A stretch of 25,762 nt of DNA from IMG/VR virus record IMGVR_UViG_3300027810_000057, positions 1 through 25,762 of that record. One strand, written 5' to 3'. Within the stretch, counting starts at the first letter, position 1. Each line of letters begins with the position of its first letter. The translations under genes and the position numbers were made by a program. The notes beneath the pieces are model-generated. The model had not been told where the DNA came from and did no database searches. It worked only from the letters and a program-made list of their open reading frames with translations. Positions 1 through 25,252 of this stretch are shown here, piece after piece. The DNA is from a virus.

Positions 1-2
1 CG

Positions 3-1709
3 GGTAACGTAACAGGTAATTTAACAGGGTCTGTAACAGGTAATGCTGATACAGCTTCTACTCTAGCGACTGCACGTACAGTACAACTGACAGGTGATGT
101 AATTGGTAGTGCTTCTTTTGATGGCTCCGCTAGTATTGCCATCACAGCTACAGTACAGGATGATTCACACGCCCACATTATCGCTAACGTAGATGGGTTA
201 CAGACTGCACTTGATGCTAAGGCTGATGATAGCACAACTATTACAGCAGGTAATGGCCTTACTGGTGGTGGTAGCTTAGGTGCTAACCGTACTATTAGCC
301 ACTCAGATACTTCTTCACAAGCAAGTCTTGTAGCTCTAACAGGTGCCGCTGTAGTAAGTGATGTTGATCTAGATACGTATGGACACGTTACAAATCTTAC
401 AACACGCAACCTTACACTAGCTAACTTAGGCTATACGGGTGCCACTAACGCTAACAACTTCACATATACTCACCCTACTCATCCTGGTGATGATGCTGGT
501 ATAGACACAGGCGTTTTAAGCGGTGCTACAGTTATCTCTGACTTAGACCTTAACATCTTCACAGATACTCTTGGTCACGTCACAGACGCTAACGCTACGG
601 TTGGTACACGTAACCTTACACTAGCTGACCTTGGGTACACGGGCGAGACTAATGCCACAGCAGACCAAACAGCCGCACAGCTACTAACAGCAGTTAAGAC
701 TGTTGATGGTGCAGGCTCTGGACTAGATTCTGATACTGTTGATGGCTTACAGGCTAATCAATTCTTACGTAGTGATTCTAGTGACACACATACAGGCACA
801 TTAACACTAGATGTCGTTGAGGTTGGTAACGAACTCAGGTTCCCTAATAACACATCTGTTGCAGACGTATCTTTGACAGGCACTAGCGATCAAGACACAG
901 GTTTTAACTGGTCAGGTTCTAATGCTGTTAACTATGTCTCAGGTGGTGTACTCAAGTATAACCTTAACAACGTATGGCACTCAGGCAATGATGGCTCTGG
1001 CTCAGGCTTAGATGCTGATACTGTTGATGGTGTACACGAGTCCACCTTCATGCGTAGGAGCGCAAACTCTCAGCTAGACATGAACAACGACAACATTGTT
1101 GGTGTGAACGCACTTATTCATGAGGGCGACAGCGACACATACATCCAGTTCCACGCATCAAACGAGTGGCGTGTCGTTACTGGCGGAGTTGAACGTCTTG
1201 AGGTGAACAACGCCAACATCACTATGGCTGCGACGTTGCAGATGGCTTCCCATAATATCGACATGAATAACAACCACATCGTTGGCGCACGCAATATCTA
1301 CCACGAAGCCGATAGCGACACATACATGGGGTTTCACGCAGCAGACCAGTTTCAGGTTGTTACAGGCGGTACTGAACGCTTAGAGGTGAACAACTCGGCG
1401 GTGACTGTAGCTGGAACCTTTAATAACACCTCTGATGCACGACTAAAGGAAAACGTAGAGCCTCTGACTAACGCTTTGTCTGATGTGTGCAAGCTAGAAG
1501 GTGTATCCTTTAACTGGATCGACGGCGGTAAGAAATCAACGGGCTTCATTGCTCAACAGGTTGAACCTATTCTGCCAGACGTTGTGACTACAAACGAAGA
1601 TGACGGTATTAAATCTGTCAACTACGTGGGTATGATTGGCCACTTAGTAGAGGCAATCAAAGAACAACAGGCTCAGATTGATGAGCTTAAACAGAAACTT
1701 AATGGCTAA
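3..1709 (+). CDS. Tail fibre protein, C-terminal part, with peptidase S74 chaperone (5' end outside window)
   Basis: The frame is open from base 3 to the TAA at 1709, so the N-terminus lies left of the window; an internal TTG at 873 is not a start. The protein is rich in Gly, Thr, Asn and Asp and begins with VTGN-type repeats. Two GLD(S/A)DTVDG motifs (about 719-740 and 1002-1030) are typical of phage fibre shafts. The last 93 residues (from codon 1431) match the S74 intramolecular chaperone: SDARLKEN, then GFIAQQVEPILPDVV, then a C-terminal helix. In this family the Ser of SDxRLK and its Lys form the self-cleavage dyad; here they are Ser (codon 1431) and Lys (codon 1446), predicting cleavage just before 1431 after trimer folding. 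It probably works as a receptor-binding fibre with the adhesin gene that follows. Fibre identity is secure; host receptor is unknown. Confidence 0.9.
   Translation, partial: GNVTGNLTGSVTGNADTASTLATARTVQLTGDVIGSASFDGSASIAITATVQDDSHAHIIANVDGLQTALDAKADDSTTITAGNGLTGGGSLGANRTISHSDTSSQASLVALTGAAVVSDVDLDTYGHVTNLTTRNLTLANLGYTGATNANNFTYTHPTHPGDDAGIDTGVLSGATVISDLDLNIFTDTLGHVTDANATVGTRNLTLADLGYTGETNATADQTAAQLLTAVKTVDGAGSGLDSDTVDGLQANQFLRSDSSDTHTGTLTLDVVEVGNELRFPNNTSVADVSLTGTSDQDTGFNWSGSNAVNYVSGGVLKYNLNNVWHSGNDGSGSGLDADTVDGVHESTFMRRSANSQLDMNNDNIVGVNALIHEGDSDTYIQFHASNEWRVVTGGVERLEVNNANITMAATLQMASHNIDMNNNHIVGARNIYHEADSDTYMGFHAADQFQVVTGGTERLEVNNSAVTVAGTFNNTSDARLKENVEPLTNALSDVCKLEGVSFNWIDGGKKSTGFIAQQVEPILPDVVTTNEDDGIKSVNYVGMIGHLVEAIKEQQAQIDELKQKLNG
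342..656 (+). repeat. Internal duplication in fibre gene (TRNLTLA-LGYTG unit)
   Basis: Two related in-frame units lie here. The first runs from about 342 and contains VVSDVDL, GHVT and TRNLTLANLGYTG (402-440). The second runs from about 522 with VISDLDL, GHVT and TRNLTLADLGYTG (606-644). The second copy carries a 24-base insertion between SDLDL and GHVT. The similarity is visible in both protein and DNA, consistent with intragenic duplication of a shaft module. Confidence 0.75.
1077..1427 (+). repeat. 61-residue tandem repeat in fibre shaft
   Basis: Two consecutive units start DMNNDNIVG (1077) and DMNNNHIVG (1260), exactly 183 bases (61 codons) apart. Shared landmarks in order are DMNN, IVG, HE(G/A)DSDTY, FHA, VVTGG, ERLEVNN. 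The second unit runs straight into the S74 chaperone domain. Such repeats commonly form beta-strand shaft segments in trimeric fibres; that structural reading is inference. Confidence 0.88.
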
Positions 1710-1727: not shown

Positions 1728-2546
1728 ATGGCTATACAAGTAAACGGCACAACCGTTATTGATAACAGCAGGAACCTGACTAATGTAGGTGGATTAAAGA
1801 CCATAGGCGGCACAGGTATCATTGGTAGTGGTGATATTGCTGTAGGTCAGACTATTCCCGCTTTTGACCCTAGTGCTACGCCCAACTGGTCGCGAACCTC
1901 ATCTGGTACATGGACAAAGCCGACCCTTGCATCAGGTGTTTGGGTGGTCATCCATCTGGTTGGGGGCGGCGGTGCTGGTGCTGGCAGCACGTGGAACTCA
2001 GGAGGTAACGGCGGAAATGCTTTAGTAGTAGGTGCTATAGCAAGCACCCTCCCTTCCAGTATTGCTTTTACCTTGGGAGCAGGTGGCGCTGGCACAGGTG
2101 GCGACAACGCGGACGGTGGAGGTAGTTCCTCTTTTACTGTTTCGGGACGGACCTTCACGGCTGCGGGTGCTTTGGGCAATGAGACATCTAGTTCTAACTA
2201 CAGCGCTTTAACCAATCCACTCCAACCAAGTGGCGTTTATCTTATGGTTAACAGTGGCCAAAGTCCTTTCTTGTATGATGGGTCTGGCTGTTCAGGTGGT
2301 GCAACTACAAAAAATGGCACCAACTATACCCCTCAAAATGCAGAGTTCGGCGGCGGTGCTGGAGCGGGTCTGCCATTCTCCGCAAGGCCTCAAGGCGGCG
2401 GCACTGCAGGTACCTCTTCGTTTGCTGGCAACGGAGGTACCTTTGGCAATAATGGTCAATCTGGAGGAGGAGGCGGCGGCGGATTTAGCGACGGGGATGG
2501 CGGCGACGGCGGAGCTGGCATAGTAAAAATCTGGTATATAAGCTAA
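1728..2546 (+). CDS. Glycine-rich tail fibre tip / adhesin-like protein
   Basis: This 272-aa protein starts at an ATG preceded by an AGAGGAA ribosome site, 18 bases after the S74 fibre. Residues 1-50 (MAIQVNGTTVID..NLTNVGG) resemble the attachment segment of phage fibre-tip proteins. From about residue 78 it is dominated by poly-Gly stretches (VGGGGAGAG, GAGGAGTGG, GGGAGAG, a seven-Gly run near the C-terminus) ending GIVKIWYIS. Polyglycine blocks of this kind are known from T-even gp38-type adhesins, where they pack as polyglycine-II helices exposing variable loops. I infer a receptor-binding tip bound to the preceding fibre. Local GC content looks higher than in neighbouring neck genes, suggesting separate acquisition. 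Exact receptor is unknown. Confidence 0.75.
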   Translation: MAIQVNGTTVIDNSRNLTNVGGLKTIGGTGIIGSGDIAVGQTIPAFDPSATPNWSRTSSGTWTKPTLASGVWVVIHLVGGGGAGAGSTWNSGGNGGNALVVGAIASTLPSSIAFTLGAGGAGTGGDNADGGGSSSFTVSGRTFTAAGALGNETSSSNYSALTNPLQPSGVYLMVNSGQSPFLYDGSGCSGGATTKNGTNYTPQNAEFGGGAGAGLPFSARPQGGGTAGTSSFAGNGGTFGNNGQSGGGGGGGFSDGDGGDGGAGIVKIWYIS

Positions 2547-2559
2547 AGGGGCTACAAAA

Positions 2560-2871
2560 ATGACTAAAACATTCTTTCATCGACAGACAGGCAACGCATG
2601 TGTTTTTGACGATAGTGAAGTCCTTGCGAACTGGCCAGATTTTCAGGAATTTCCGTTTCCTGAGATAACTACTTCGGGAAGTGTATTAGGTATTCGCAAG
2701 AAGGCCCTAGAAGTGTCTGATTGGATGGCGGTACAAGACCGCACCATGACCCAAGAGCAACGGGATTATCGTCAGGCTTTAAGGGATATTCCGCAGCAAA
2801 CAGCCTTCCAAGACGGGCGTTACGATGACGTAGTGTGGCCCACAAAGCCTGCTGATACGAGTTCTCTTTAA
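2560..2871 (+). CDS. Tail assembly chaperone-like protein (Phage_tail_APC type)
   Basis: A 103-aa protein with an AAGGGG ribosome site upstream of its ATG. The C-terminal half has the signature WMAVQDRTMT..QRDYRQALRDIP..VVWPTKP, the W-x-YRQ-LRDIP-WP-KP pattern of the tail assembly chaperone family linked to fibre gene clusters of many phages (Pfam family of the PF16778 type, by recall). Its position directly after an adhesin gene fits a fibre folding or assembly helper. Its stop codon TAA shares its last base with the ATG of the halogenase gene, so the two are probably translationally coupled. Family assignment is fairly good; the precise client protein is inferred. Confidence 0.72.
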   Translation: MTKTFFHRQTGNACVFDDSEVLANWPDFQEFPFPEITTSGSVLGIRKKALEVSDWMAVQDRTMTQEQRDYRQALRDIPQQTAFQDGRYDDVVWPTKPADTSSL

Positions 2872-4019
2872 TGCTCAAAAAGGTTTCAATATTAGGGCGT
2901 GGCACTGCTGGTACTCTAGCCTATCTAAGGATGCTACAGCTACGCTCTAATACGGAAGGGCCGCTGGATATTGAGTGGTACTACGATTCAAGTACTAAAG
3001 CTATGGCTGTAGGGGAAGGTACAACACCCACCTTCCCAAAATCTCTTATGCACGTCAAAGGTCTATCTATGGGCACGGACATGCACAAGCTGGACGCTCG
3101 GCCAAAGCACGGTATCGAATATGAAAACTGGGGCAAGTCTGATTTTGTTCACCCCTTCGGTATGGGGTATCACGGCATTCACTTTAACGCCTCAAAGTTT
3201 CAACAGCATGTCTTTGACAACTGTACAAACGAACCAGACGTATCGCTGATAGACGCACACGTATCACACGATCAAATAGATAGCGATGTCATCATTGACT
3301 GCACAGGCGCTCCTAAGAGCTTTGAGGATTATGACATCCCTAAGTATATACCTGTGAATGCCGTACATGTTACGCAGTGTTCTTGGCCTGACGGCCCTAA
3401 AGGTTTGCACACGAAGACTATAGCCCGTCCTTGGGGCTGGGTATTTGTTATCCCTTTGCTCACTAGATGCAGCGTTGGCTACCTGTACAACCGCGATATT
3501 ACATCTCTAGATCAGGTTAAGGCAGACGTTGAGAATGTATTTGATGAGTTAGGCGTTATGCCTACAGACACCACGAACAGCTTTCCCTTTAACAACTACG
3601 TCCGTAAAAAACTTATCGACGGACGTGTGGCGTATGCAGGGAACTCTGGGTTTTTCTTAGAGCCAATGGAAGCTACAACACTCGACTGTGTTGATAGAGT
3701 TTTAAACTGCATTGGTCGCAATCCTCTAGAGGAAATGTGGAACCCCTTTTTAAAGCTGCTCTTCCAAGAGGTAGAGTATTTCATTATGGTGCACTACGCA
3801 GCTGGTAGTAAGTGGAACAACGAGTTCTGGGATTTTGCAACAGAGCGTGGAAGGTTGGCAATGGAAGAGGCTTATAGCCGTCCGTTCTTTAACGATCTCT
3901 ATACCCACGGAAAGCCTCTTCAGGAGGTTGGGTATGCTCCTTACTTTGGTGCTGAGAGCTACAAACTAAACCAAGAGGGCTTGGGGTTAAACCCACCCTT
4001 CGCAATAGCTGCAGAATAA
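2871..4019 (+). CDS. Flavin-dependent tryptophan halogenase homologue
   Basis: This 382-aa protein aligns by eye with PrnA-type FAD-dependent halogenases. It has the FAD motif GRGTAG (9-14), VGEGTTP (48-53, VGEATIP in PrnA), RPKHGIEYENW with Lys79 matching PrnA catalytic Lys79, VHPFG with His94, DVIIDCTG (139-146), GWVFVIP (189-195) replacing the family GWxWxIP, FLEPMEAT with Glu267 matching PrnA Glu346, and VHYAAGS..FW. It is about 130-150 residues shorter than classic tryptophan halogenases, mainly at the C-terminus. No flavin reductase is visible nearby, so the host would have to supply FADH2. It overlaps the chaperone-like gene by one base and has no clear ribosome site of its own. Viral halogenases are known from marine cyanophages. 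Substrate here is unknown; a free small molecule or a virion protein are both possible. Confidence 0.85.
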   Translation: MLKKVSILGRGTAGTLAYLRMLQLRSNTEGPLDIEWYYDSSTKAMAVGEGTTPTFPKSLMHVKGLSMGTDMHKLDARPKHGIEYENWGKSDFVHPFGMGYHGIHFNASKFQQHVFDNCTNEPDVSLIDAHVSHDQIDSDVIIDCTGAPKSFEDYDIPKYIPVNAVHVTQCSWPDGPKGLHTKTIARPWGWVFVIPLLTRCSVGYLYNRDITSLDQVKADVENVFDELGVMPTDTTNSFPFNNYVRKKLIDGRVAYAGNSGFFLEPMEATTLDCVDRVLNCIGRNPLEEMWNPFLKLLFQEVEYFIMVHYAAGSKWNNEFWDFATERGRLAMEEAYSRPFFNDLYTHGKPLQEVGYAPYFGAESYKLNQEGLGLNPPFAIAAE

Positions 4020-4041: not shown

Positions 4042-4665
4042 ATGCTAGGTTTTACTACCTTATCACAGACCCCTCTGTCGCAGAGTGCCAGTGCATTATT
4101 TGCTAACGCATTTATGCCTGGTACAGCTGCACAGTTTAGCACGAGTAACCTACTCTATGAGGCTATAGCATTTCGCACCCTAAGCAGTGTGGCTGCTAAC
4201 TTAAACGTGGCCATAGAGTTTGATGCTAAAGCTAATACAACAGTAGCAGACACTATTGCTTCTACTGTTATTAATGCTATACTTACAGATGCACAGGCTA
4301 GTACAGTACCTACGTCTGTTACAGCTTCCTTCAGTATTAATGACTTCTTTGATGTTGATGCTAAAGCTGTTATAGCTTTCTCTGATGTATCTGCTACAAC
4401 AATAACAGAGGTAGTATACCCTGAAGCCCAAGGCGTAGTAGGGATAGAAGGCGTAGCTTTAACGCTAAACAACTATGACTTTACTGATGAAGATGCACAG
4501 GCTAATATATTACTTAGTGAAGTTACTGCATCCTTTACCGTAGAATTAGCAAACCCTATAGCTGTGGTATTCCCTTACCAAGACTACGCAGATCAGTATA
4601 ACAAACAGCGTACTCTGTTTATTGGTAATCAAGATAAAAGCAATACTGTACATATTACAGCGTAA
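4042..4665 (+). CDS. Probable virion protein of unknown function, 207 aa
   Basis: A strong ribosome site (GGAGAGG) precedes the ATG. The protein is Ala-, Thr-, Val- and Asp-rich and nearly lacks Cys. It has imperfect repeats around DAKA, EDAQA and DVxA followed by hydrophobic strand-like stretches (IAFSDVSATTI, ILLSEVTASFTVEL), suggesting a beta-rich repeat protein. The C-terminus is more polar (YADQYNKQRTLFIG). It is followed nine bases later by a fibre-tail adaptor-like gene, so a neck or tail-associated role is likely. I do not recognise the family. Confidence 0.6.
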   Translation: MLGFTTLSQTPLSQSASALFANAFMPGTAAQFSTSNLLYEAIAFRTLSSVAANLNVAIEFDAKANTTVADTIASTVINAILTDAQASTVPTSVTASFSINDFFDVDAKAVIAFSDVSATTITEVVYPEAQGVVGIEGVALTLNNYDFTDEDAQANILLSEVTASFTVELANPIAVVFPYQDYADQYNKQRTLFIGNQDKSNTVHITA

Positions 4666-4995: not shown

Positions 4996-5685
4996 ATGGC
5001 ATATGATTACATAAGCTTAGTTAATGACATCAACCGCCGTCTTAATGAAGTAGAACTTACTGCTACTAACTTTCCTACTGCTACAGGTTACTATAGCTTT
5101 GCTAAGGACTCTGTAAACGCTTCTATTCGTCATATCAACCAAGAAGAGTATGAGTGGCCTTGGAACCATGTTGAAGAGACAGAGGTTCTAGCTGTAGGTG
5201 AAGTACGCTACAGTATGCCTTATGATAGTAAAACAATTAATATGAATACCTTTCGTGTTAAGCGTGATGCGGATCTTAACGTAGAAACGGTTAAACTTAA
5301 AGTTATGAGCTATGAAGAATGGCTTGACAAATACGCCGACTCTGAGTATAACTCATCATCAGGTACATTCGGTATTCCTATGTACGTTGTACGTACTCCT
5401 AGCAGAGAGATTATCTTTTACCCTGCACCTGATAAAGAGTATGAAGTAGTATATGAATACTTCCGTACAGGATATGATCTAGAATCCTCTACAGACGTGC
5501 CTACCCTACCTGATCAGTATCGTTATACTATTGTAGACGGTGCTATGTATTATGTGTACCAATTCCGTGGCGATACTCAGGCAGCACAATTAGCACTGCA
5601 GAAGTTTGAGCAGGGCATTAAACAATTACGTAGCTTACATATTAATCGCACTGAATACTTGCGAGATACGAGAGTACATTTCTAA
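4996..5685 (+). CDS. Head-tail adaptor / tail tubular protein A-like
   Basis: A 229-aa protein with a perfect AAGGAG ribosome site. The helical N-terminus (MAYDYISLVNDINRRLNEVE) is followed by EEYEWPW, the strand-rich SYEEWLDKY..GIPMYVVRTPSREIIFYPAPDKEYEVVYEYF, and a C-terminal helical segment (YRYTIVDGAMYYVYQFRGD..AQLALQKFEQGIKQL). This order of helix, PAPD-type beta core and helix matches adaptor proteins of SU10- and T7-like podoviruses, which form a dodecameric ring between portal and nozzle. The next gene, a nozzle homologue, begins on the last base of its stop codon, as expected for partners in one complex. Family placement is good, the subfamily less certain. Confidence 0.75.
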   Translation: MAYDYISLVNDINRRLNEVELTATNFPTATGYYSFAKDSVNASIRHINQEEYEWPWNHVEETEVLAVGEVRYSMPYDSKTINMNTFRVKRDADLNVETVKLKVMSYEEWLDKYADSEYNSSSGTFGIPMYVVRTPSREIIFYPAPDKEYEVVYEYFRTGYDLESSTDVPTLPDQYRYTIVDGAMYYVYQFRGDTQAAQLALQKFEQGIKQLRSLHINRTEYLRDTRVHF

Positions 5686-7223
5686 TGGCTACACAATGGC
5701 AGACATTTCCTATTGAGTTTAGAGGTGGGTTAATCTCTAACCTTAGCCCTCTTCAGCAGGGTACTAACGCCGTGGGTTCTGCTACCATCTTACAGAACTT
5801 TGAAGCTACTAAAGAGGGTGGCTACTCTAAGATCAAAGGCTATGAAAAGTATAGCACTACAACGGTACCTGGGTCTGGCCCTGTCTTAGCAATAAAGGTT
5901 ATTAGCTCTGGTCGCATTATTGTAGCTAGACAGAATGCTTCTAACGTAACTGAGTACTACTTTGGTACAGGTACTACGTGGACTTCAATGGGCGCTAGGC
6001 CTCTGCTAGGCGGAAAGGCCCAACATGTTCTGTATAACCTTGATGGTGATGACAAAGTTTTGTTTGTTGACGGAGTTAACTATCCAGGAAGCTACAATAC
6101 ATCAGGTAACACCCTCACTGCACTATCGTCTTCTACTGACGTTTTAGGTGCTGAGCATGTAGCTGTATTTAAGAACACCGCGTTCTATGCTAAGGGCAAT
6201 AACGTATTCTTTACTGCACCCTTTACTGTAGATGATTTTAGCTCAGCTAACGGCGCAGGTGCTATTAATGTAGCCTCTGACATCACAGGCTTAGTTGTCT
6301 TTCGTGATCAACTAATCATCTTCACTACAGACAGCGTTAAACGTCTTACAGGTAACACTGCTGCTGACTTCCAAGTAGCACCTATTACAGACCGCATTGG
6401 CTGTATCAATGGTGATACTATCCAAGAGGTTGGTGGTGACATTATGTACCTAGCGCCTGATGGGATTAGGCTTCTAAGTGCTACTGACCGTATTGGTGAC
6501 TTCGGACTAGACATTGCATCTGATCCTATCTCTAAGGATGCTAGTACATTCCTTGGCAGTACCCCTAACTTCACTTCTATATTGATGCGTGAGAAGGCTC
6601 AGTATAGGATCTTTGCTTACGTTGAATCAGAACAAGCAGAAGTGGCTAAAGGTCTTATCGCTACTAAGTTTGTATCACAGGGTGCATCAGGTATTAGCTG
6701 GTCTACTACCTTTGGCATTAAAGCATATGTAGCAGACAGCCGTTATTCAGGTACCGCTGAGACTATCGCCTTTGCTAACACAGACGGGTATGTATACATA
6801 CTAGACACAGGTTCTAGCTTTGACGGCGCTTCTATTGATGCTATCTTTGAATCCCCTTACATGCCTTTATCAGACCCACAGGTACGTAAGTCATTCTACA
6901 AGGTAGCACTATACGCTGAACCTACGGGTAGCATGAACCTAAATCTCAATGTTAAGTATGACTTTGGTACAGGTACAAACACTGGTATAATTCAACCTGC
7001 TACACAAACCATTGAGAGCACAGGCTCTGCTGTATTCTTGTATGGTGCATCTGGTGCTGTATTTAACAGCGCTACTTACGGTGGTGCGCTAGACGTAGTA
7101 TACAATACAAACATCGTAGGCTCAGGCAAGACTATTGCATTGCGTGTAGAGGATCTCTCTACTAACCCCACATTCACTCTAGATACAGCCCTGTTAGAGT
7201 TCAGGCAAAATGATAGACAGTAA
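5685..7223 (+). CDS. Tail nozzle / tail tubular protein B-like
   Basis: This 512-aa protein starts MATQWQTFPIEFRGGLISNLSPLQQGTNAVGSA, then NFEATKEGGYSKIKGYEKY, the usual opening of podoviral nozzle proteins in which a contiguous coating of loops leads into a beta-propeller. Repeated strand motifs (GADHVAV-like blocks, FRDQLIIFTTDSVKRLTG, GGDIMYLAPDGIRLLSATDRIGD) fit propeller blades. The C-terminal third is beta-rich (VALYAEPTGSMNLNLNVKYDFGTG). It starts by a 1-base TAATG overlap with the adaptor gene. At 512 residues it is much shorter than T7 gp12 (about 790), closer to compact nozzles of marine podoviruses. It would form the distal tail conduit and bind the fibres encoded next. Confidence 0.75.
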   Translation: MATQWQTFPIEFRGGLISNLSPLQQGTNAVGSATILQNFEATKEGGYSKIKGYEKYSTTTVPGSGPVLAIKVISSGRIIVARQNASNVTEYYFGTGTTWTSMGARPLLGGKAQHVLYNLDGDDKVLFVDGVNYPGSYNTSGNTLTALSSSTDVLGAEHVAVFKNTAFYAKGNNVFFTAPFTVDDFSSANGAGAINVASDITGLVVFRDQLIIFTTDSVKRLTGNTAADFQVAPITDRIGCINGDTIQEVGGDIMYLAPDGIRLLSATDRIGDFGLDIASDPISKDASTFLGSTPNFTSILMREKAQYRIFAYVESEQAEVAKGLIATKFVSQGASGISWSTTFGIKAYVADSRYSGTAETIAFANTDGYVYILDTGSSFDGASIDAIFESPYMPLSDPQVRKSFYKVALYAEPTGSMNLNLNVKYDFGTGTNTGIIQPATQTIESTGSAVFLYGASGAVFNSATYGGALDVVYNTNIVGSGKTIALRVEDLSTNPTFTLDTALLEFRQNDRQ

Positions 7224-12341: not shown

Positions 12342-12363
12342 CGGCACCTTCAAGGATAATAAC

Positions 12364-14115
12364 ATGGCAACGTATAATACAAATGGGGTAACAAGTGTAC
12401 CCGCTGATGAAGAAGATAAGATCGTTAGCAGTGGCTTAGGTTCTAAACCAAGTAGATCCTCTCGTGCACGTACTGCAGACGTTAGTGACAACGAGGTTAA
12501 CCCTGTAACAGCAATGTTTAGAGATATTGCTGCTAGGTTTACTTCTGCTGGTGCTACGCTGTCTGCACCTACACGTCCTAAAGCTTCTACATATAGACCT
12601 GACTCAGGGGGGTCTATCTATGATGGCGGAATGTTTGATGTACCTGCTGGTGTTCCAGCACCTCTAGATAGAAATGTAGATGTCTCTGCTATAGATAGCG
12701 CACTGGAAGACGCCTTCAGTAACGCAGCTGTACCTCAGTTGTACTTAGCCACCTTAGGTGACCCACAGCCAGAGACTACGATTGATGTGGCTGCACTCCA
12801 AGCACCTGCCCCTATTACGGTTACAGAGATTACTGTTAAAGCAGGTGACACACTCACCGCTATTGCAAAAGATAATGGTGTACCTGTACAGGATGTCATT
12901 GATGCTAATCCACAGATCAAGAACCCTGACATGATTCGTCCAGGTGATGTCGTGTCTATACCTGATCCGCGCTTTGAGGATGTACCTAAACCACGTGGTG
13001 TACCAGATAGCCCACGCTTGTCAGACAGTACAGTTACTCCCACAGGCACAACAACAGAACCTAGGGATGGGCCTGTAGGTCTTATGTCTCCTCCTGCACA
13101 GGATGCTGTACCAGAGGTTGATACGGATACTGCTGAACTAGGTACGCCTGCAGAACCATCATCTCGTTTAGATGCTAAAGGTAGTGAGGTAGCAGGCGTT
13201 ACGACTAAGGCTTATGACTTCTTAACTAAGACTGGGTTCACTCCACCAGAGAACCAGCTGATCTCTGATAAGATGGCTATAACTTCGAACACACGCGGTA
13301 CTCAGTTTACGAACAGAGCAGATGCTCTGGAGTTTATCGACAACTCTTTGACTCTTGAGCCTACTCGTAAGGCTGCTTTCAGTGCTACTGTAGCTGCAGA
13401 ATCAGGGTCAGGTCTGGTGGAAGGGACTAACTACTCTAAGGATGGTGCCATCGCGGTATTGGGTGGTGGTGACGCCGATAGGATAGCAAGCATACGCCGT
13501 CTGTATGGTAACCGTAATAGACTTACTGCAGATGAGCAAGTAGAACTGTTTAATATTGCATACGGTGGTAGGATGGATAATTCTGCAACTGAAGGCCATA
13601 AGTTTAGAGGCAGAGGCCTGATCCAAATCACAGGTAAAACCAACTATCTTAAATATGGTAAAGCTATAGGTGTAGGAGATGCCTTAGTAAGAGACCCTGA
13701 CATCTTGATAAGAAACCCTTCTGTAATGCTAGCTGTAACAGAGGCATACTTAAAAGATAAACTACCTGAAAGAGAAGATGGCCTGAGTGCTAACGACTTG
13801 AAAGACGCTATAGGACACTCAGGAGAGGTGCCACGTGGGGTTACTTGGAACGGTACAGGTAGTGCTTATAAAGGTAATCAGCGATGGCTTGATGTAGTAG
13901 GTCGCCTTGAGGATGCTGGTAAACAGGATGAGGCAGATGCTGCAAGGTTAAACAATGAGTTTACAGCACAAGAAAAAGTAGGGACTTACATCGACGGGGA
14001 CATTGGACCTGGTAGCCTTAGATCTATGAGAAGCTGGCTTACAGAGCGAGGGGTAACCATCCCTGAGGGCACTAGCGCAAGAGCGTTGGTACGCCTTGTG
14101 AATGAGACTGAATAA
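12364..14115 (+). CDS. LysM plus GH19-type lysozyme (peptidoglycan hydrolase)
   Basis: I start this 583-aa protein at ATG 12364, which follows AAGGATAA; an earlier in-frame start at 12235 would overlap the previous gene by over 100 bases. Residues 1-150 are low-complexity. A LysM domain spans about 155-200 (VKAGDTLTAIAKDNGV..VIDANPQI..IRPGDVVSIP). After a Pro/Thr-rich linker, residues 285-500 match chitinase-like (GH19) phage lysozymes: AAESGSG with probable catalytic Glu346, NYSKDG, then KFRGRGLIQITGKTNY (413-428). The tail YIDGDIGPGSLRSM..WLTERG resembles a degenerate peptidoglycan-binding motif. It could be the endolysin or a virion-borne lysozyme; its setting among internal virion genes and next to a candidate holin allows both. 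The holin gene overlaps its stop by one base. Confidence 0.82.
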   Translation: MATYNTNGVTSVPADEEDKIVSSGLGSKPSRSSRARTADVSDNEVNPVTAMFRDIAARFTSAGATLSAPTRPKASTYRPDSGGSIYDGGMFDVPAGVPAPLDRNVDVSAIDSALEDAFSNAAVPQLYLATLGDPQPETTIDVAALQAPAPITVTEITVKAGDTLTAIAKDNGVPVQDVIDANPQIKNPDMIRPGDVVSIPDPRFEDVPKPRGVPDSPRLSDSTVTPTGTTTEPRDGPVGLMSPPAQDAVPEVDTDTAELGTPAEPSSRLDAKGSEVAGVTTKAYDFLTKTGFTPPENQLISDKMAITSNTRGTQFTNRADALEFIDNSLTLEPTRKAAFSATVAAESGSGLVEGTNYSKDGAIAVLGGGDADRIASIRRLYGNRNRLTADEQVELFNIAYGGRMDNSATEGHKFRGRGLIQITGKTNYLKYGKAIGVGDALVRDPDILIRNPSVMLAVTEAYLKDKLPEREDGLSANDLKDAIGHSGEVPRGVTWNGTGSAYKGNQRWLDVVGRLEDAGKQDEADAARLNNEFTAQEKVGTYIDGDIGPGSLRSMRSWLTERGVTIPEGTSARALVRLVNETE

Positions 14116-20309: not shown

Positions 20310-21026
20310 TTATAGACCTTCTTTCATGAACACCTTAACCCACTCAGCACAGATGCCACTACGCACAATGTCGTCTACACCAAACTCAACAACAGGGACA
20401 TCAAGCATGTGTTTCTTAGCGAGATGGATGACCTTAGCTAGGCCAGACGTTCCCTTCAAGTCAGACTGCTGGATGTCACCGTTAAGAACAATGGTACTAC
20501 CTTCGCCAACACGTGTCAACAGCATCTTGATCTCAGGTATCTCAATGTTCTGTGCTTCATCTACAATAATAAAGGCGTCATCAAAGCTACGGCCACGCAT
20601 CAAAGCTAAGGTAGCAACTTCAATGTTACCACTCTTTAACCCTGTATCAACAGCACCACGGCCTAGATGTTTAACCAGTACATCCAGAACAGGCAACGCC
20701 CAAGGTTGAGCCTTCTCCTCAAGAGTACCTGGCAAGAACCCAATGTCTTTGCCTACTGCTACGTGAGGTCGTGTGATAACAATCTTGTCAATCTCTTTGA
20801 GGGTATACAAGTCTGCAGCACATGTAGCAGTAACGTAAGTCTTACCTGTACCAGCAGGACCAAGGATCATTACCTGCTTACTCATCTTGATAGCGTTGAT
20901 AAGCTTGCCTTGGTTGTATGTCTTGGGTATGATACCCGACACAGGTTTAGTTGATGCCCCCTTGTACGTAGTCTTACGGCGTGATCTTGTTTGTTTCTTT
21001 GGTGGCTCGTTATCATTAGCGTTCAT
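20310..21026 (-). CDS. phoH: PhoH-like ATPase
   Basis: A 238-aa P-loop NTPase. The N-terminal 30 residues are basic and disordered-looking (KKQTRSRRKTTYKG). Walker A is GPAGTGKT at 56-63, ITRP follows at 84-87, Walker B is FIIVDEAQN at 152-160, and the NGD sensor is at 182-184. This order is the PhoH core seen in E. coli PhoH and widespread in marine phages. PhoH proteins are ATPases tied to RNA metabolism; phage versions are often linked to phosphate stress, although that link is not shown here. No Pho box was visible upstream, since its start overlaps the endonuclease VII-like gene by 11 bases. Assignment is very secure, in vivo role less so. Confidence 0.95.
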   Translation of the reverse strand: MNANDNEPPKKQTRSRRKTTYKGASTKPVSGIIPKTYNQGKLINAIKMSKQVMILGPAGTGKTYVTATCAADLYTLKEIDKIVITRPHVAVGKDIGFLPGTLEEKAQPWALPVLDVLVKHLGRGAVDTGLKSGNIEVATLALMRGRSFDDAFIIVDEAQNIEIPEIKMLLTRVGEGSTIVLNGDIQQSDLKGTSGLAKVIHLAKKHMLDVPVVEFGVDDIVRSGICAEWVKVFMKEGL

Positions 21027-21438
21027 AATGTGCCTTTAAATATTTGAGTGCCTGTTCTATACCTGTTATGTCATCCCCTAGATGACCTATACCTGTGTTA
21101 CAAGGAGGACAAAGCCACCCTCTAAACTCGCCTGTGTTATGGTCATGGTCTAGGTTATGTTTCTTACCAACAAGGGAAGTACCACAACACTGACATGATT
21201 CAGTAACAGGAGGTGCAGTCTTTTTAGCATAGTATATAGCTGTGTATACTTCATTGTAACAGTCTTTACATCTACTATGATGGGAAACTGTATCTTCTTT
21301 TGTACCTTGGTTTTTTTTACGGCTGGCCACATAGAAGTTTTCTAGAGGGTGCTCCTCATTACAACTCCTACATATTTTAGTGCCCTCACTAATAAAGTTA
21401 CTAAACTTTGTACCCGCATCAAACATGTTTAATTGCAT
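21016..21438 (-). CDS. Endonuclease VII-like HNH nuclease
   Basis: This 140-aa protein has two parts. Residues 20-62 carry C23-x2-C26 and C57-x2-C60, a probable extra zinc knuckle. The C-terminal half matches T4 endonuclease VII-type His-Me nucleases: C82-x2-C85, LDHDHNTGEFRG (96-107), then C110-x2-C113-N114, corresponding to the T4 zinc cysteines, DHDH metal site and Asn62. It could resolve branched replication intermediates before packaging, or be a free-standing homing-type nuclease. Its placement inside a tightly overlapped operon favours a domesticated role. A strong AAAGGAAG site precedes the ATG, which also overlaps the previous stop (TGATG). An A8 run lies at codons for KKN (about 40-44). 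Confidence 0.85.
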   Translation of the reverse strand: MQLNMFDAGTKFSNFISEGTKICRSCNEEHPLENFYVASRKKNQGTKEDTVSHHSRCKDCYNEVYTAIYYAKKTAPPVTESCQCCGTSLVGKKHNLDHDHNTGEFRGWLCPPCNTGIGHLGDDITGIEQALKYLKAHYER

Positions 21439-21638
21439 CAGGCTTCCTTTGGTGTTGGGTTACACATATATACAAGAGATACCTTGCCCTTTGATCTGGA
21501 TGGTAAAGAGCTATAGACATCTGACATTACCCTAGATGCCGCAAACACACAGGCATCACGTGTATTATACAAGTCTGGCGAAGCCTTTACTATAGCAGCC
21601 TCGCCAGCTAAGTATGCTATGATAACCAAAACATACAT
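21438..21638 (-). CDS. Tiny membrane-associated or secreted protein, 66 aa
   Basis: The protein opens with a hydrophobic stretch (MYVLVIIAYLAGEAAIVKAS) that could be a signal peptide or membrane anchor. The remainder is polar with two Cys (DACVFAAS and YMCNP) spaced so that a disulfide is possible if exported. Its ATG overlaps the stop of the 61-aa gene (TAATG) and has only an A-rich leader, without a good ribosome site. It might therefore be translated by re-initiation, or as a -1 frameshift fusion with the 61-aa protein (see slippery site). No family is recognised. The two-small-gene arrangement recalls spanin pairs, but no lipobox is seen and this is a metabolic operon. Confidence 0.65.
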   Translation of the reverse strand: MYVLVIIAYLAGEAAIVKASPDLYNTRDACVFAASRVMSDVYSSLPSRSKGKVSLVYMCNPTPKEA

Positions 21639-21823
21639 TAGTTTTTTTCTTCTGTACCTAGCTTGTCTTTAACGTAGTCAATGCCCTCTGTTACCTTAGG
21701 CTCTACGTATTCAACAGCTTGTGTTACCTTAGGTTGTACATAGGTAATTGCTTTACTGCCTACATCAGCTGTGACGCTAATTGCTGCGATGCCGATTGCA
21801 AACATTGCTAATAGTTCAATCAT
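21638..21823 (-). CDS. Small membrane-anchored repeat protein, 61 aa
   Basis: Residues 3-20 are hydrophobic (ELLAMFAIGIAAISVTA), a probable transmembrane or signal segment. Three 11-residue repeats follow: ITYVQPKVTQA (26-36), VEYVEPKVTEG (37-47), IDYVKDKLGTE (48-58). The repeats are amphipathic with Tyr-Val and Lys-Val/Leu at fixed places. The gene overlaps the glutaredoxin stop by four bases (ATGA) and has AAAGGAAC as ribosome site. It ends in an A AAA AAC run before TAA. Function is unknown; it may be an inner-membrane protein with a short peripheral amphipathic tail. Confidence 0.68.
   Translation of the reverse strand: MIELLAMFAIGIAAISVTADVGSKAITYVQPKVTQAVEYVEPKVTEGIDYVKDKLGTEEKN
21641..21647 (-). 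other. Candidate -1 ribosomal frameshift heptamer A AAA AAC
   Basis: On the leftward strand the 61-aa gene ends GAA AAA AAC TAA. The heptamer A AAA AAC is in the X XXY YYZ phase and sits directly before the stop. After a -1 slip the next codons are CTA ATG TAT, the exact frame of the 66-aa gene, giving a fusion of about 128 residues. No obvious stimulatory hairpin was identified by eye. Confidence 0.45.
21650..21748 (-). repeat. Three tandem 11-residue repeats in the 61-aa protein
   Basis: Units ITYVQPKVTQA, VEYVEPKVTEG and IDYVKDKLGTE follow each other without gaps. The first two share YV-x-PKVT; the third loses the Pro. The 33-base unit is also visible in DNA (gta...cct aag gta aca), so this is a recent tandem duplication. 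Confidence 0.85.
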
Positions 21824-22047
21824 TCTAGATGTTCCTTTAGTTCATTATAGCCACCAATGTGATGGCCCTTGCTGTCCCAGATTTGGGGTACCGTAGTCAT
21901 ACCTGACTGTTTGAACAGTGTCAATAGCCATTTACTACTAGGTGAGTTTAAAGAGTAGTCCGTGAAGACTACCCTCTTTTCTTTTAGTAGCTGCTTAGCT
22001 TTAGTACAGAACCCACAGTTGTCTGTGCCTATTACTACGTAGCTCAT
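21820..22047 (-). CDS. Glutaredoxin
   Basis: A 75-aa protein with the compact glutaredoxin fold signature: redox site C11-G-F-C14 after VVIGTDN, cis-Pro motif TVPQIW (52-57), and GGYNEL (64-69) for glutathione and substrate contact. It is slightly shorter than bacterial glutaredoxins (80-90). CGFC replaces the usual CPYC, which tends to alter redox potential. It starts by an ATGA overlap with the ribonucleotide reductase, its likely client: it would reduce the C-terminal CxxxxC of that enzyme in the cytoplasm. Class II reductases classically use thioredoxin, so the pairing is noteworthy but not unusual in phages. Confidence 0.92.
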   Translation of the reverse strand: MSYVVIGTDNCGFCTKAKQLLKEKRVVFTDYSLNSPSSKWLLTLFKQSGMTTVPQIWDSKGHHIGGYNELKEHLE

Positions 22048-23942
22048 ACTAGATCTACAATCTCACAGCTGTCACCAGAGCAAGCCATAGTTTGCATAGA
22101 CACTGTGTTATCTTCACTCTCATAGTCAGACAATTCGGACCAATCAATACGGCTAGGCATTAGCTCAGACATAGCTTGATACTCCTCCTTAGTGCAGTCT
22201 TGATAAGGAGCCTGTTGGTATGTATGATCTGAGTGTGGTAAGAAGGACACACCTGACATCTCATCAAAGTGTTTATATACAAATGCACCCACTTCCATCC
22301 ACTCACCATCACGTACTGAGATAGTCACACTAGGTTTATGTTCACACCAATGGCGCTGATAGGTAAGCCACAACTCCAACTGCTCTACAGCTGTCATGTC
22401 ATTACGTGTTACTGCTAAGCTAGGAGACTTAACAGGGAAGCTGAACACAACAGTAGAGTCAGGCTTCATAACACACGGCTCGTTAGGGATACCTCTATCA
22501 ATCATAAACTGTGTTAGCGGATCTTTAGTATCCCCACGTACAGTACGAATATAGTAGGGGCTGTGTCGGGCGTGGATTCCGCTGGCGCTATCAACCAGCT
22601 GTGAAACCGTGCCGCTTGGCTTGACACAGCTAATAGCTGTAGAAGCAGGGATGTTAAGAAGCTCAGCCCACTCAGCATTAGTTTCAACAGCGATGGCACG
22701 TAGGTGCTCAAGAGTCTTAGACAGCCCTTGATTACGGTTAGTCATTAGTGGGTTGTCCATGATACCCGTCATAGACACACCTAGTAGACGTTCCTCTGCT
22801 GTATTATTCTGCCATACCTTACGTAGATAAGGGAACTTAATCATTGTAGACTGTATAGTACCTAGGATTGTAGCCAGTTTAACCTTACGTTCAAGGTCTT
22901 CCATAGTATCTGTTGCACGTACTACACACTCGGTTAGGTTGCAAAACTGGTATGGGCGTAAAATTATCTCGCTGCAAGGGTTGCAACCGAACTCATGATT
23001 AGGATCACGCCGCCCATTCTTAGCAGCCTGTACCTTGGATGCCTGGCGATTAAAGATACCACGCTCTCCTGACTTGGACTCAACAAGAGATAGCCACTCA
23101 CGCATGTACGTTTCCATGTCAGGCTTCTCAGTGTATGCCACGGAGTTGTTAGCTAGGGCACGGTGGCCTGCTGTTTCCCACCACTGACCTGACTTAGCAT
23201 GGCGCATACGATCATCAGACAAATTTGACAAACTGATCATAGCCGAACGCCGAACTCCACCGACGACAACTACCTGACCAATGAAGCACATCAAGTCGTG
23301 ACACTCCATAGAAGATAGCTTGCGTCCTTGTGCACCTTTAAATACAGACGCAGCAAAGTTAAACAGTTCTACAAGAGGCGCTGGGCCTGATGCTCTACCG
23401 CCAAAAGTTTTAAGCCGTGCCCCTGCGGGACGCACTTGAGACACATCCCACTTAGGGATTTCACCAGCCCAGAGGAGTGCCAGAACTTGCCTGAACCCTT
23501 TAGCCCAGCCTTCCTTACTGTCTTTAACGACGACGACAGACTCGCTCTCAAACAAATCAGGGACTTCTGGGAGCTTGCTGACGAACTGGCGCTCGACACT
23601 GAACCCGACTCCAGTACCACAGAGGAGAATGTACATAGCCTCATCGAAGGACTTAGGGTCATCTACGGGTAGGTAGCTACAATTATATCCTGCCGTATTG
23701 TCTCGGTCTAAAGCTGGACCGCTTGTCATCATTGCTCTCATACTGGGCATGATGTCTTGGTTAAGGATAGCCTGTTCAATGTCACGGATGTAAGAGCTAT
23801 CACCTGTGACTTTACGTACTACGTTATCCATGTAACGTTCTACTGTTTGGCCCCATGATTCACGGCCCTTACCATCAAAGTACTTAGCGTACCGTGACTT
23901 GTGAATGAATGCTTGGTAGTCTGTTGCTAATTCGTTGCTCAT
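22044..23942 (-). CDS. nrdJ: Class II (adenosylcobalamin-dependent) ribonucleotide reductase, monomeric type
   Basis: This 632-aa enzyme reduces ribonucleotides to deoxyribonucleotides using a thiyl radical generated from B12 coenzyme. Key residues match the Lactobacillus leichmannii enzyme: C88 in GYNCSYLP (its C119), C323 in NPCSEI (catalytic C408), C334 in FCNLTE (C419; the 11-residue spacing is identical), and the C-terminal pair C621-x4-C626 (C731/C736). Other landmarks are MPSMRA, LLCGTGVGFSVE, VRPAGARLKTFGGRASGP, GGVRRSAMISL and VKPSGTVSQL. No small radical subunit gene is present, as expected for class II. It is about 100 residues shorter than the bacterial prototype. AGGAG precedes the ATG; it overlaps the MazG-like and glutaredoxin genes by four bases each. 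Host must provide cobalamin. Confidence 0.95.
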   Translation of the reverse strand: MSNELATDYQAFIHKSRYAKYFDGKGRESWGQTVERYMDNVVRKVTGDSSYIRDIEQAILNQDIMPSMRAMMTSGPALDRDNTAGYNCSYLPVDDPKSFDEAMYILLCGTGVGFSVERQFVSKLPEVPDLFESESVVVVKDSKEGWAKGFRQVLALLWAGEIPKWDVSQVRPAGARLKTFGGRASGPAPLVELFNFAASVFKGAQGRKLSSMECHDLMCFIGQVVVVGGVRRSAMISLSNLSDDRMRHAKSGQWWETAGHRALANNSVAYTEKPDMETYMREWLSLVESKSGERGIFNRQASKVQAAKNGRRDPNHEFGCNPCSEIILRPYQFCNLTECVVRATDTMEDLERKVKLATILGTIQSTMIKFPYLRKVWQNNTAEERLLGVSMTGIMDNPLMTNRNQGLSKTLEHLRAIAVETNAEWAELLNIPASTAISCVKPSGTVSQLVDSASGIHARHSPYYIRTVRGDTKDPLTQFMIDRGIPNEPCVMKPDSTVVFSFPVKSPSLAVTRNDMTAVEQLELWLTYQRHWCEHKPSVTISVRDGEWMEVGAFVYKHFDEMSGVSFLPHSDHTYQQAPYQDCTKEEYQAMSELMPSRIDWSELSDYESEDNTVSMQTMACSGDSCEIVDLV

Positions 23943-24295
23943 CTGTTGTCTCCTGAACCTTTAATAACACCACGCTTGTAGCGGCTGTCTAGTTTTTCCA
24001 TGTTTGCTTGCATTACCTCTCCTAGATTACTGTAGAAGTAGTTAGACAAGGCTGTAGTATAAAACAATACATCCCCTAACTCCTTAATAATATCTTGCTG
24101 ACTAACCTTAGTGCCGTCTCGCATGTACTTTTTTATTTTCTCTGCTACTTCCCCTGCCTCACCACACATACCAAGTACATTCTCTATAAGGCGTGTGTCT
24201 CCTTCAGTAATAATCTTTTCTTCTACCCAGTAGGAGTACTCCATTGGTGTTACCTTTACTATATTAAAGGCATCAATGTCCTGCTTAGTAATCAT
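23939..24295 (-). CDS. MazG-like nucleotide pyrophosphohydrolase
   Basis: A 118-aa all-helical protein with the MazG metal-binding signature: GEAGEVAEK giving E46-x2-E49, and KELGDVLFYTTAL giving E72-x2-D75, separated by 22 residues. The length equals a single MazG domain. Such enzymes hydrolyse NTPs or dNTPs to monophosphates and pyrophosphate; phage versions may clean modified dNTPs (dUTP, dCTP) or recycle host nucleotides. Its place directly before the reductase, with a four-base overlap, suits dNTP supply. AAGGAG ribosome site precedes ATG. Substrate cannot be read from sequence. Confidence 0.9.
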   Translation of the reverse strand: MITKQDIDAFNIVKVTPMEYSYWVEEKIITEGDTRLIENVLGMCGEAGEVAEKIKKYMRDGTKVSQQDIIKELGDVLFYTTALSNYFYSNLGEVMQANMEKLDSRYKRGVIKGSGDNR

Positions 24296-24459
24296 GCTCT
24301 CTCCTTAACGTATAAGTTATTTATGTCTACATCATCTATGTCGTACACAACGTCTGTTATTAAATCATGAATGTCTTGCTCATGACTGTCTTCATATGAG
24401 GATAGAATATTATTACTATCGTCTATCTGCAACACAAAGGTAACACTAAACTTTTTCAT
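24292..24459 (-). CDS. Small acidic protein, 55 aa, unknown function
   Basis: A short frame running from ATG at 24459 to TGA at 24292, supported by a strong GGAGGG site and four-base ATGA overlaps on both sides (with the 117-aa gene and the MazG-like gene). It begins MKKFSVTFVLQIDDSN and is then acidic (HDLITDVVYDIDDVDINNLYVKERA). The strand-then-helix pattern could be a small alpha/beta fold. Without it the operon would have a 160-base gap, unlike every other junction. No family is recognised. Confidence 0.8.
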   Translation of the reverse strand: MKKFSVTFVLQIDDSNNILSSYEDSHEQDIHDLITDVVYDIDDVDINNLYVKERA

Positions 24460-24809
24460 GCATTACCCTCCGTCTTAGTCCAGCGCTCAAGCTTGTATAC
24501 GTTTCCTTCTACTCTAACTTTGCTACCTTCTTCTAGTTCTTTCTCAGCATCAGTGTACTCAGAAGGGAACATCTCTCTTAGTATTTCTGATCTGATGTCC
24601 GCGAAGTCTTCCCATGTCTCAGGGAATAGCTCTAAGAACTTTTGTGCAGCGGCCATAGTAAGAGCCTCATCTAGTGCTGCCCTCATACCTTCTTCAGAAC
24701 CCTGCGTACCAAATATTAAACCTGACTTAATACTACCTGTCCATTCCCCATCTTCTATTATGGGGTGGAGTACAATAGCTACTTCACCTTCTTTGATTTC
24801 GTAAGCCAC
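24456..24809 (-). CDS. Hypothetical protein, 117 aa (GTG start)
   Basis: I choose the GTG at 24809 because it overlaps the TAG of the preceding gene by one base (TAGTG) and has GAGGAG about 8-10 bases upstream; an ATG at 24872 would give 138 aa but a 64-base overlap. The protein starts VAYEIKEGEVAIVLHPIIEDGEWTGSIKSGLIFG, a beta-rich portion, then a helical EEGMRAALDEALTMAAAQKFLELFPETWEDF, and ends with a small beta segment SKVRVEGNVYKLERW. It is acidic. Similar short proteins sit beside endonuclease I genes in marine podoviruses, but I do not recognise a named family. Confidence 0.72.
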   Translation of the reverse strand: MAYEIKEGEVAIVLHPIIEDGEWTGSIKSGLIFGTQGSEEGMRAALDEALTMAAAQKFLELFPETWEDFADIRSEILREMFPSEYTDAEKELEEGSKVRVEGNVYKLERWTKTEGNA

Positions 24810-25252
24810 TACTCTCTCCTCTTTACTTTGATACGCTGGTCTTTCATGCGACTGCCTTTTTCTTTTAGCCATTCCTCAGGGATCGTGCGGTGTGCCCACT
24901 TGAAACCTTTCTGATCACACCAATCGCAGTAACGGCTTTTGGCTCCCTTGTAAAGCCTAGACTTTGCATTACTAAATACAAATCTTATGTCCAGTGTAGG
25001 GTGCTGACGCTGTACCTCAATATGTTTACGCCTATCATCTGAAGAAAACAAACCCTTCATTTCAATTATGATACCGTTGTCTAACTCAAAGTCTGGTGTG
25101 TACGTGCGATACTTTAGATCTTCCCATTCTATCTTTAACTTTTCATATGATACAATCTTCTGCCTATCTTTGAGGTATGCAGCAGCCTCAACTTCAAGGC
25201 CACTGCGATACAAACGAGAGTTATGCTTTCTAACTGTTATCCTTTTACCCAT
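24809..25252 (-). CDS. T7 gp3-like endonuclease I (Holliday junction resolvase)
   Basis: This 147-aa protein is nearly the size of T7 endonuclease I (149 aa) and has the PD-(D/E)xK site at matching positions: SGLEVEAA with E20, YTPDFEL with D54, and IIIEMKG with E64 and K66 (T7 has E20, D55, E65, K67). The YRSGLE opening and NAKSRLYKG...YCDWCDQKGFKWA tail are typical of the family. It cuts four-way junctions and branched DNA, helping concatemer processing and degradation of host DNA. GGGGAG precedes the ATG, which overlaps the upstream nuclease gene by eight bases. Assignment is very secure. Confidence 0.94.
   Translation of the reverse strand: MGKRITVRKHNSRLYRSGLEVEAAAYLKDRQKIVSYEKLKIEWEDLKYRTYTPDFELDNGIIIEMKGLFSSDDRRKHIEVQRQHPTLDIRFVFSNAKSRLYKGAKSRYCDWCDQKGFKWAHRTIPEEWLKEKGSRMKDQRIKVKRRE

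Follow-up and report, generated by a model that had tools for sequence, protein, structure and literature searches.

Ever since halogenases were first seen in cyanophages, it has been asked what these phage enzymes act on in nature, and an earlier proposal assigned them to antibiotic-like protection (PMC2984593). The locus described here raises the question in a specific form: on what does a halogenase homologue act when its gene lies in a tail-adhesin cassette? The sequence analyzed, called the window below, is a virus fragment of 25,762 bp taken from a larger collection record.

Gene order of the adhesin cassette

The cassette genes are all on the plus strand. The first encodes an S74 tail fiber (ORF 3-1709, part 1..1709), which matched PF13884 Peptidase_S74 (E = 1.1e-15) and many phage tail-fiber PHROGs; its 5' end is cut by the window, and its C terminus is an intramolecular chaperone. 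It is followed by a Gly-rich adhesin of 272 aa (1728..2546), the proposed substrate, which matched PF21722 Gly_rich_2 (E = 6.8e-10; 39.8 bits against a cutoff of 24.3). Next comes the tail-fiber assembly chaperone APC, of 103 aa (2560..2871), which matched PF16778 Phage_tail_APC (E = 8.3e-13), this C-terminal domain profile scoring 48.4 bits against a cutoff of 26.6. The fourth gene (2871..4019) encodes HAL, a short flavin-dependent halogenase family protein of 382 aa, with matches to PF04820 Trp_halogenase (E = 7.6e-26; 91 bits against a cutoff of 21) and phrog_2928 (E = 5.1e-65). These profile matches agree with the first-pass annotation, which had placed a fiber, a Gly-rich adhesin, a chaperone-like gene and a halogenase homologue in one run at these positions. 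The one-base overlap that it described between the last two genes was also confirmed, base 2871 being common to the chaperone stop and the HAL start (TTTAATG). The right-hand boundary of the cassette is o207 (4042..4665), a virion-region gene without assigned function whose homologue in another contig (L105) comes straight after the chaperone.

Downstream of HAL, the window carries virion and tail genes, and no biosynthetic partner for HAL was recognized in it. Because the tail protein at 5685-7223 is 85% identical to its counterpart in Roseobacter phage CRP-207, the host of the window phage is most likely a marine member of the Rhodobacteraceae. In addition, positions 12358-14115 encode a LysM domain with a weak chitinase-like domain, a probable endolysin or virion lysin, and positions 20310-25252 hold a minus-strand block with genes for PhoH, endonuclease VII, glutaredoxin, B12-type ribonucleotide reductase, MazG and endonuclease I.

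Fold and motifs of the halogenase homologue

HAL is predicted to have a flavin-dependent halogenase (FDH) fold in which the catalytic residues Lys79 and Glu267 are kept. Its AlphaFold model (pLDDT 91, pTM 0.89) had BrvH (6frl, E = 1e-24) as the best PDB match, and the top matches were FDHs, among them the peptide halogenase MibH (5uao). TM-scores by query length were 0.78 to 0.82 against 6frl, 9lu2 and 2pyx, with E values of about 1e-23 to 1e-24. The GxGxxG flavin motif is present as GRGTAG at residues 9-14. Lys79 (codon 3105..3107) aligned with the catalytic Lys79 of PrnA and does not vary among 57 phage homologues, and Glu267 (codon 3669..3671) aligned with the catalytic Glu346 of PrnA and is kept in at least 90% of them; Thr269 aligned with Thr348. 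NCBIfam holds no family for HAL.

Two further motifs are altered. In place of WxWxIP, HAL has WVFVIP (WxFxIP; residues 190-195, 3438..3455), where Phe192 replaces the second Trp and is found in at least 90% of the 57 homologues, and the FxxPxxSxG tunnel motif reads FLEPMEATT (FxxPxxAxT). Most of the phage HAL family has both motifs altered, with changes of Trp to Phe, Ser to Ala and Gly to Thr or Ser. Because of these alterations, halogenase activity cannot be assumed for HAL; it is presumed here, and it could be lost or changed. The same alterations favor a reading in which HAL is a halogenase-derived flavin-dependent monooxygenase that oxidizes, for example hydroxylates, a Trp at the adhesin tip, so that the adhesin would be modified without halogenation. 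A role in preventing monooxygenation has been ascribed to WxWxIP (PMC8407142), and oxidation would fit the Trp covariation described below equally well. However, the retention of both Lys79 and Glu267 would be unexpected for a bare monooxygenase, and some active FDHs have no WxWxIP motif (PMC8407142). We consider oxidation by HAL quite unlikely.

The HAL profile aligned to PrnA residues 6-90 and then 160-448, leaving PrnA 91-159 without a counterpart. This segment, with the H101/F103 region, contributes to the Trp pocket. The Trp-pocket segment of a free-Trp halogenase is thus absent from HAL; that loss takes away a portion of the pocket and suggests an open active site.

Linkage of HAL to the adhesin and chaperone genes

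Nine IMG/VR contigs encoding HAL at 82-84% identity formed the close-relative set. The order Gly-rich adhesin, APC and HAL was found in all nine, one of which (L005) shows only the adhesin C terminus. The chaperone is directly upstream of HAL, with a spacing of -4 (overlap) to +9 nt, and the S74 fiber is present in the run in most of these contigs. Fusion of HAL to the chaperone or the adhesin was not seen among the loci listed. In L010/L011 and L003, the flanking genes are unlike those of the window and the cassette order is kept. Another contig (L006:119-3379) carries two adhesin and chaperone units, and HAL is present behind the Gly-rich unit only, with none behind the non-Gly-rich one; the Gly-rich domain is there fused to the fiber end, which has no S74 domain. 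The backbone of L105 matches that of the window (adaptor 90%, tube 85% and Gp77 81% identical), and this contig encodes a different adhesin and lacks HAL, with about 10 nt separating the chaperone gene from the o207 homologue. The cultured phage CRP-207 (tube 85%) also has another adhesin and no HAL, with 20 nt from the chaperone to the next gene. Because the cassette is kept on different backbones and these backbone-matched phages have no HAL, HAL tracks the adhesin cassette and not the phage. Gly-rich adhesins with a chaperone and without HAL are common.

Between the window and its relatives, HAL showed a dN of about 0.12 and a dN/dS of 0.04-0.07 wherever this ratio could be calculated; its synonymous sites were nearly saturated. 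The adhesins were 43-66% identical. By these estimates, HAL is under strong purifying selection. The linkage of HAL to the cassette is real, and it is old because synonymous sites are near saturation.

HAL homologues in other genomic settings

A scan with the HAL profile gave 70 loci. A second arrangement recurred among them, consisting of a fiber, a Gly-rich adhesin, a phrog_7759 protein beginning with MAHYA or MAHFA, and HAL, often with genes of about 230 aa without assigned function on either side, one of which is phrog_7084. The HALs of this arrangement form a distant clade apart from that of the window, and the well-supported branches of the HAL tree require that adjacency to an adhesin has changed three times or more. 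The co-occurrence of halogenase, chaperone and Gly-rich adhesin, for which the first-pass annotation had recommended a search, was therefore found in nine of nine close relatives and, as the second arrangement, in distant ones. Next to the HAL of L024 (61%) are an adhesin rich in Trp and a protein of 78 aa that resembles the chaperone at its end; that of L028 (44%) has an adhesin-like gene on one side and a chaperone gene on the other; and those of L012/L013, L025 and L026 (54-59% identical) are beside packaging-like genes. An adhesin or chaperone feature was present within 4 kb at 32 of the 64 nonredundant loci and absent at the other 32, a count in which the HALs of S-ShM2 and S-RIM4 escaped the 4-kb markers yet adjoin annotated fiber genes. 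Conserved linkage in related phages, which mattered to the first-pass proposal, thus holds throughout the relatives at 82-84% identity but for only half of the wider set.

Several other features of these loci were observed. The phrog_7759 protein, which has no Pfam family, is found behind Gly-rich adhesins in many phages (L172-L251, L055:5698-5994 and L059:4888-5307) and is probably an undescribed adhesin chaperone. The two families of about 230 aa that flank HAL in the second arrangement are exemplified by L059:5322-6011 and L059:7142-7849, the latter being phrog_7084. Three contigs (L034, L035 and L049) carry a tandem pair of HAL genes, and in L047, L014 (S-RIM4) and L020 (HTVC008M), HAL has at least one oxygenase of 2OG-Fe(II) or phytanoyl type in its vicinity. 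A search of prokaryote genomes with two peptide patterns, a weak negative, found no cellular HAL relatives.

Because half of the related phage HALs have no adhesin nearby, a small-molecule role has to be weighed. HAL may halogenate a small molecule, a host-surface component or a sugar component, whether as a metabolic gene, in superinfection exclusion or for an antibiotic-like product, the tail site being an insertion hotspot. In L027, L038 and L052, HAL is near nucleotide-sugar, glycosyltransferase or FkbM methyltransferase genes, and these neighbors suggest a different role there. A cyanophage cluster of a halogenase, 2OG oxygenases and carbamoyltransferases has also been proposed to serve a secondary metabolite or capsule decoration (PMC7824862). 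However, the window has no recognized biosynthetic partner, and a hotspot passenger should neither track the adhesin type and the tip Trp nor hold its close spacing to the chaperone through near-saturation and on different backbones. A small-molecule substrate is therefore regarded as unlikely for HAL of the window.

Tryptophan covariation in the adhesin

The AlphaFold model of the adhesin was of moderate quality (mean pLDDT 68; better at residues 50-150). It matched the Bxb1 tail tip (9d93), the cyanophage Pam3 fiber (7ypx) and, more weakly, the glycine-rich domains of ALK/LTK; a sequence search with the adhesin profile against solved structures gave no match. In the Pam3 structure, the Gly-rich domain of that fiber is distal and its loop tips are proposed receptor sites (PMC9608196). 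By analogy, the tip of the first glycine-rich loop of the window adhesin (GGGGAGAGSTWNSGGNGG, residues 79-96, 1962..2015, delimited by alignments), which carries Trp89, would be distal and receptor-facing.

Trp89 (codon 1992..1994) is the best candidate target residue. It is present in all seven nonredundant enzyme-linked adhesins and in none of 15 unlinked ones, which makes it the top discriminator of 273 alignment columns (Fisher p = 5.9e-6). Among the unlinked adhesins, that of L087 carries a Trp at a different position of this loop, so that the loop-Trp count, a measure defined after the linked sequences had been seen, is 7/7 versus 1/15. When Gly-rich adhesins of both arrangements were clustered at 70% identity (20 enzyme-linked and 56 unlinked clusters, which are non-independent), Trp in a Gly-rich context was the most enriched of the 20 residues, at 1.65 versus 0.69 per protein (p = 1.9e-5, or about 4e-4 after correction for 20 residues). 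At 50% identity (12 versus 34 clusters), Trp still ranked first (p = 6.7e-3) and was not significant after the same correction. Within the second arrangement alone, Gly-context Trp was found in 13 of 14 linked and 17 of 45 unlinked adhesins (p = 4e-4), the unlinked phrog_7759-type adhesins being drawn from the best 80 of a longer list. The covariation may reflect shared ancestry, that is, a single origin of the enzyme-linked adhesins.

The first-pass annotation had suggested Trp or Tyr of the adhesin or fiber as the target and had pointed, for example, to Trp residues between 53 and 72 of the adhesin and to its C-terminal IWY. Its Trp proposal gains from the covariation, at a residue that it had not named, and Tyr was rejected, being no more frequent in linked than in unlinked adhesins (p = 0.93). 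Trp54 is not conserved, and Trp62 was rejected since it occurs in the linked and unlinked sets alike. The columns of Trp72 and Trp269 are both within the first nine discriminating columns; Trp72 separates the sets only partly and worse than Trp89, and the IWY motif was rejected because Trp269 is replaced by Tyr or Phe in two enzyme-linked lineages (L003 and L010). In these alignments, none of residues 54, 62, 72 and 269 fits as well as residue 89.

The substrate could also be another virion protein of the cassette, either the S74 fiber, given its presence beside HAL in most close relatives, or the chaperone itself. However, HAL of L006 is behind a fiber that ends in a fused Gly-rich tip and not in an S74 domain, and the covarying residue belongs to the Gly-rich adhesin, the only protein compared for such covariation. 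We regard another virion protein as a very unlikely substrate.

Other enzymes behind the chaperone

In two unlinked relatives with full-length chaperones, the place that HAL occupies in the window, immediately after the chaperone gene that goes with a Gly-rich adhesin, is taken by a sulfotransferase (PF13469; L086:1685-2482 and L087:3100-3946). A 2OG-Fe(II) oxygenase is found directly behind a tail-fiber chaperone in L146:5157-5711 and in L159-L163 (for example, L160:6153-6698). The fiber of L159 has collagen-like GPT repeats, and its oxygenase and fiber are possibly a prolyl hydroxylase and its substrate. In some loci, what follows the phrog_7759 gene is a 2OG oxygenase or a glycosyltransferase-methyltransferase. 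These cases, which come from browsing neighbors with no background rate for comparison, suggest a general place for enzymes acting on the adhesin or fiber; in the majority of such slots no enzyme was recognized. Tentatively, and with somewhat less than an even chance, phages may have a modification slot downstream of the chaperone that goes with Gly-rich adhesins and with some others, filled by the halogenase family, a sulfotransferase, a 2OG-Fe(II) oxygenase or a glycosyltransferase/methyltransferase, each editing the adhesin or fiber that it accompanies; the edit in the window would be halogenation of Trp89.

Tail-fiber cassettes recombine as blocks. This block recombination keeps neighbors together, and HAL might accordingly have hitchhiked for a long time in an adhesin cassette that is mobile, with no functional link to it. 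Against this stand the strong purifying selection estimated for HAL, the fact that neighbors of this kind accompany two distinct HAL clades, and the other modifying enzymes that fill the slot after the chaperone in relatives. Hitchhiking is very unlikely on this evidence.

Proposed modification of the adhesin

We give a probability of about 0.5 to the reading that HAL modifies the Gly-rich adhesin of its own phage during tail assembly, most likely at Trp89 in the first tip loop, either ahead of or during folding of the adhesin by the APC-type chaperone. The product would be a modified indole at the tip, probably chlorinated or brominated, which may alter receptor binding or tip stability. This reading is preferred because the gene order is conserved and HAL co-segregates with Trp-bearing adhesins. 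It is also favored by the predicted FDH fold with its catalytic residues, the presence of MibH among the structural matches and the missing PrnA 91-159 segment. Furthermore, the slot enzymes of relatives are of a protein-modifying type, and the Pam3 chaperone embraces and binds the Gly-rich fiber domain (PMC9608196). The adhesin as substrate, Trp89 as site, halogenation as chemistry and presentation of the substrate by the chaperone are all inferred. Action of the halogenase on the adhesin, as the first-pass annotation had proposed, is thus supported by conserved linkage, by co-segregation with adhesin type rather than backbone and by Trp covariation. Against it stand the altered WxWxIP and FxxPxxSxG motifs, which put halogenation in doubt, the half of the HAL loci with no adhesin or chaperone feature nearby, the many Gly-rich adhesins that have a chaperone and no HAL, and the possible shared ancestry of the linked adhesins.

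Searches of the open-access literature turned up no account of halogenation on virion proteins. The Trp covariation gives phage halogenases a concrete candidate substrate and residue, and it reduces the question to one for mass spectrometry. If the reading is true, some receptor-binding proteins are edited post-translationally by phage enzymes, an editing that sequence-based host-range prediction ignores, and HAL-type enzymes are natural protein halogenases.

Comparison with known systems

Pam3 gp24 with its gp25 chaperone and the T2-type gp38 adhesins resemble the window adhesin in having a Gly-rich tip domain with variable distal loops, and Pam3 also pairs a Gly-rich fiber with a partner assembly chaperone (PMC9608196, PMC12892980). 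Unlike for the window cassette, no modifying enzyme is described for them in the accessible parts of these sources.

The prnA genes of cyanomyoviruses (phrog_2928, T4-GC 212) belong to the same protein family as HAL. They are located in the gap between talC and the fiber genes in S-ShM2, upstream of fiber genes in S-RIM4 and elsewhere in S-SSM5, S-SSM7 and Sf-CH8. VirX1 of cyanophage Syn10 (6QGM) is likewise a phage FDH with an aligned catalytic Lys, and a wide active site has been reported for it (PMC8407142). In contrast to HAL, which has 382 aa, altered motifs and a place in an adhesin cassette, VirX1 is a chain of 531 residues that keeps WVWNVP and FIEPLESNG. HAL has the fold of PrnA, RebH and BrvH and keeps residues equivalent to Lys79, Glu346 and Thr348, but it has no counterpart of the PrnA Trp-pocket segment. 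MibH, SrpI and MppI are also of the FDH family and act on Trp of a ribosomal peptide in RiPP pathways (PMC12615548). Their peptides belong to biosynthetic clusters, whereas HAL is in no such cluster and its proposed substrate is a phage adhesin.
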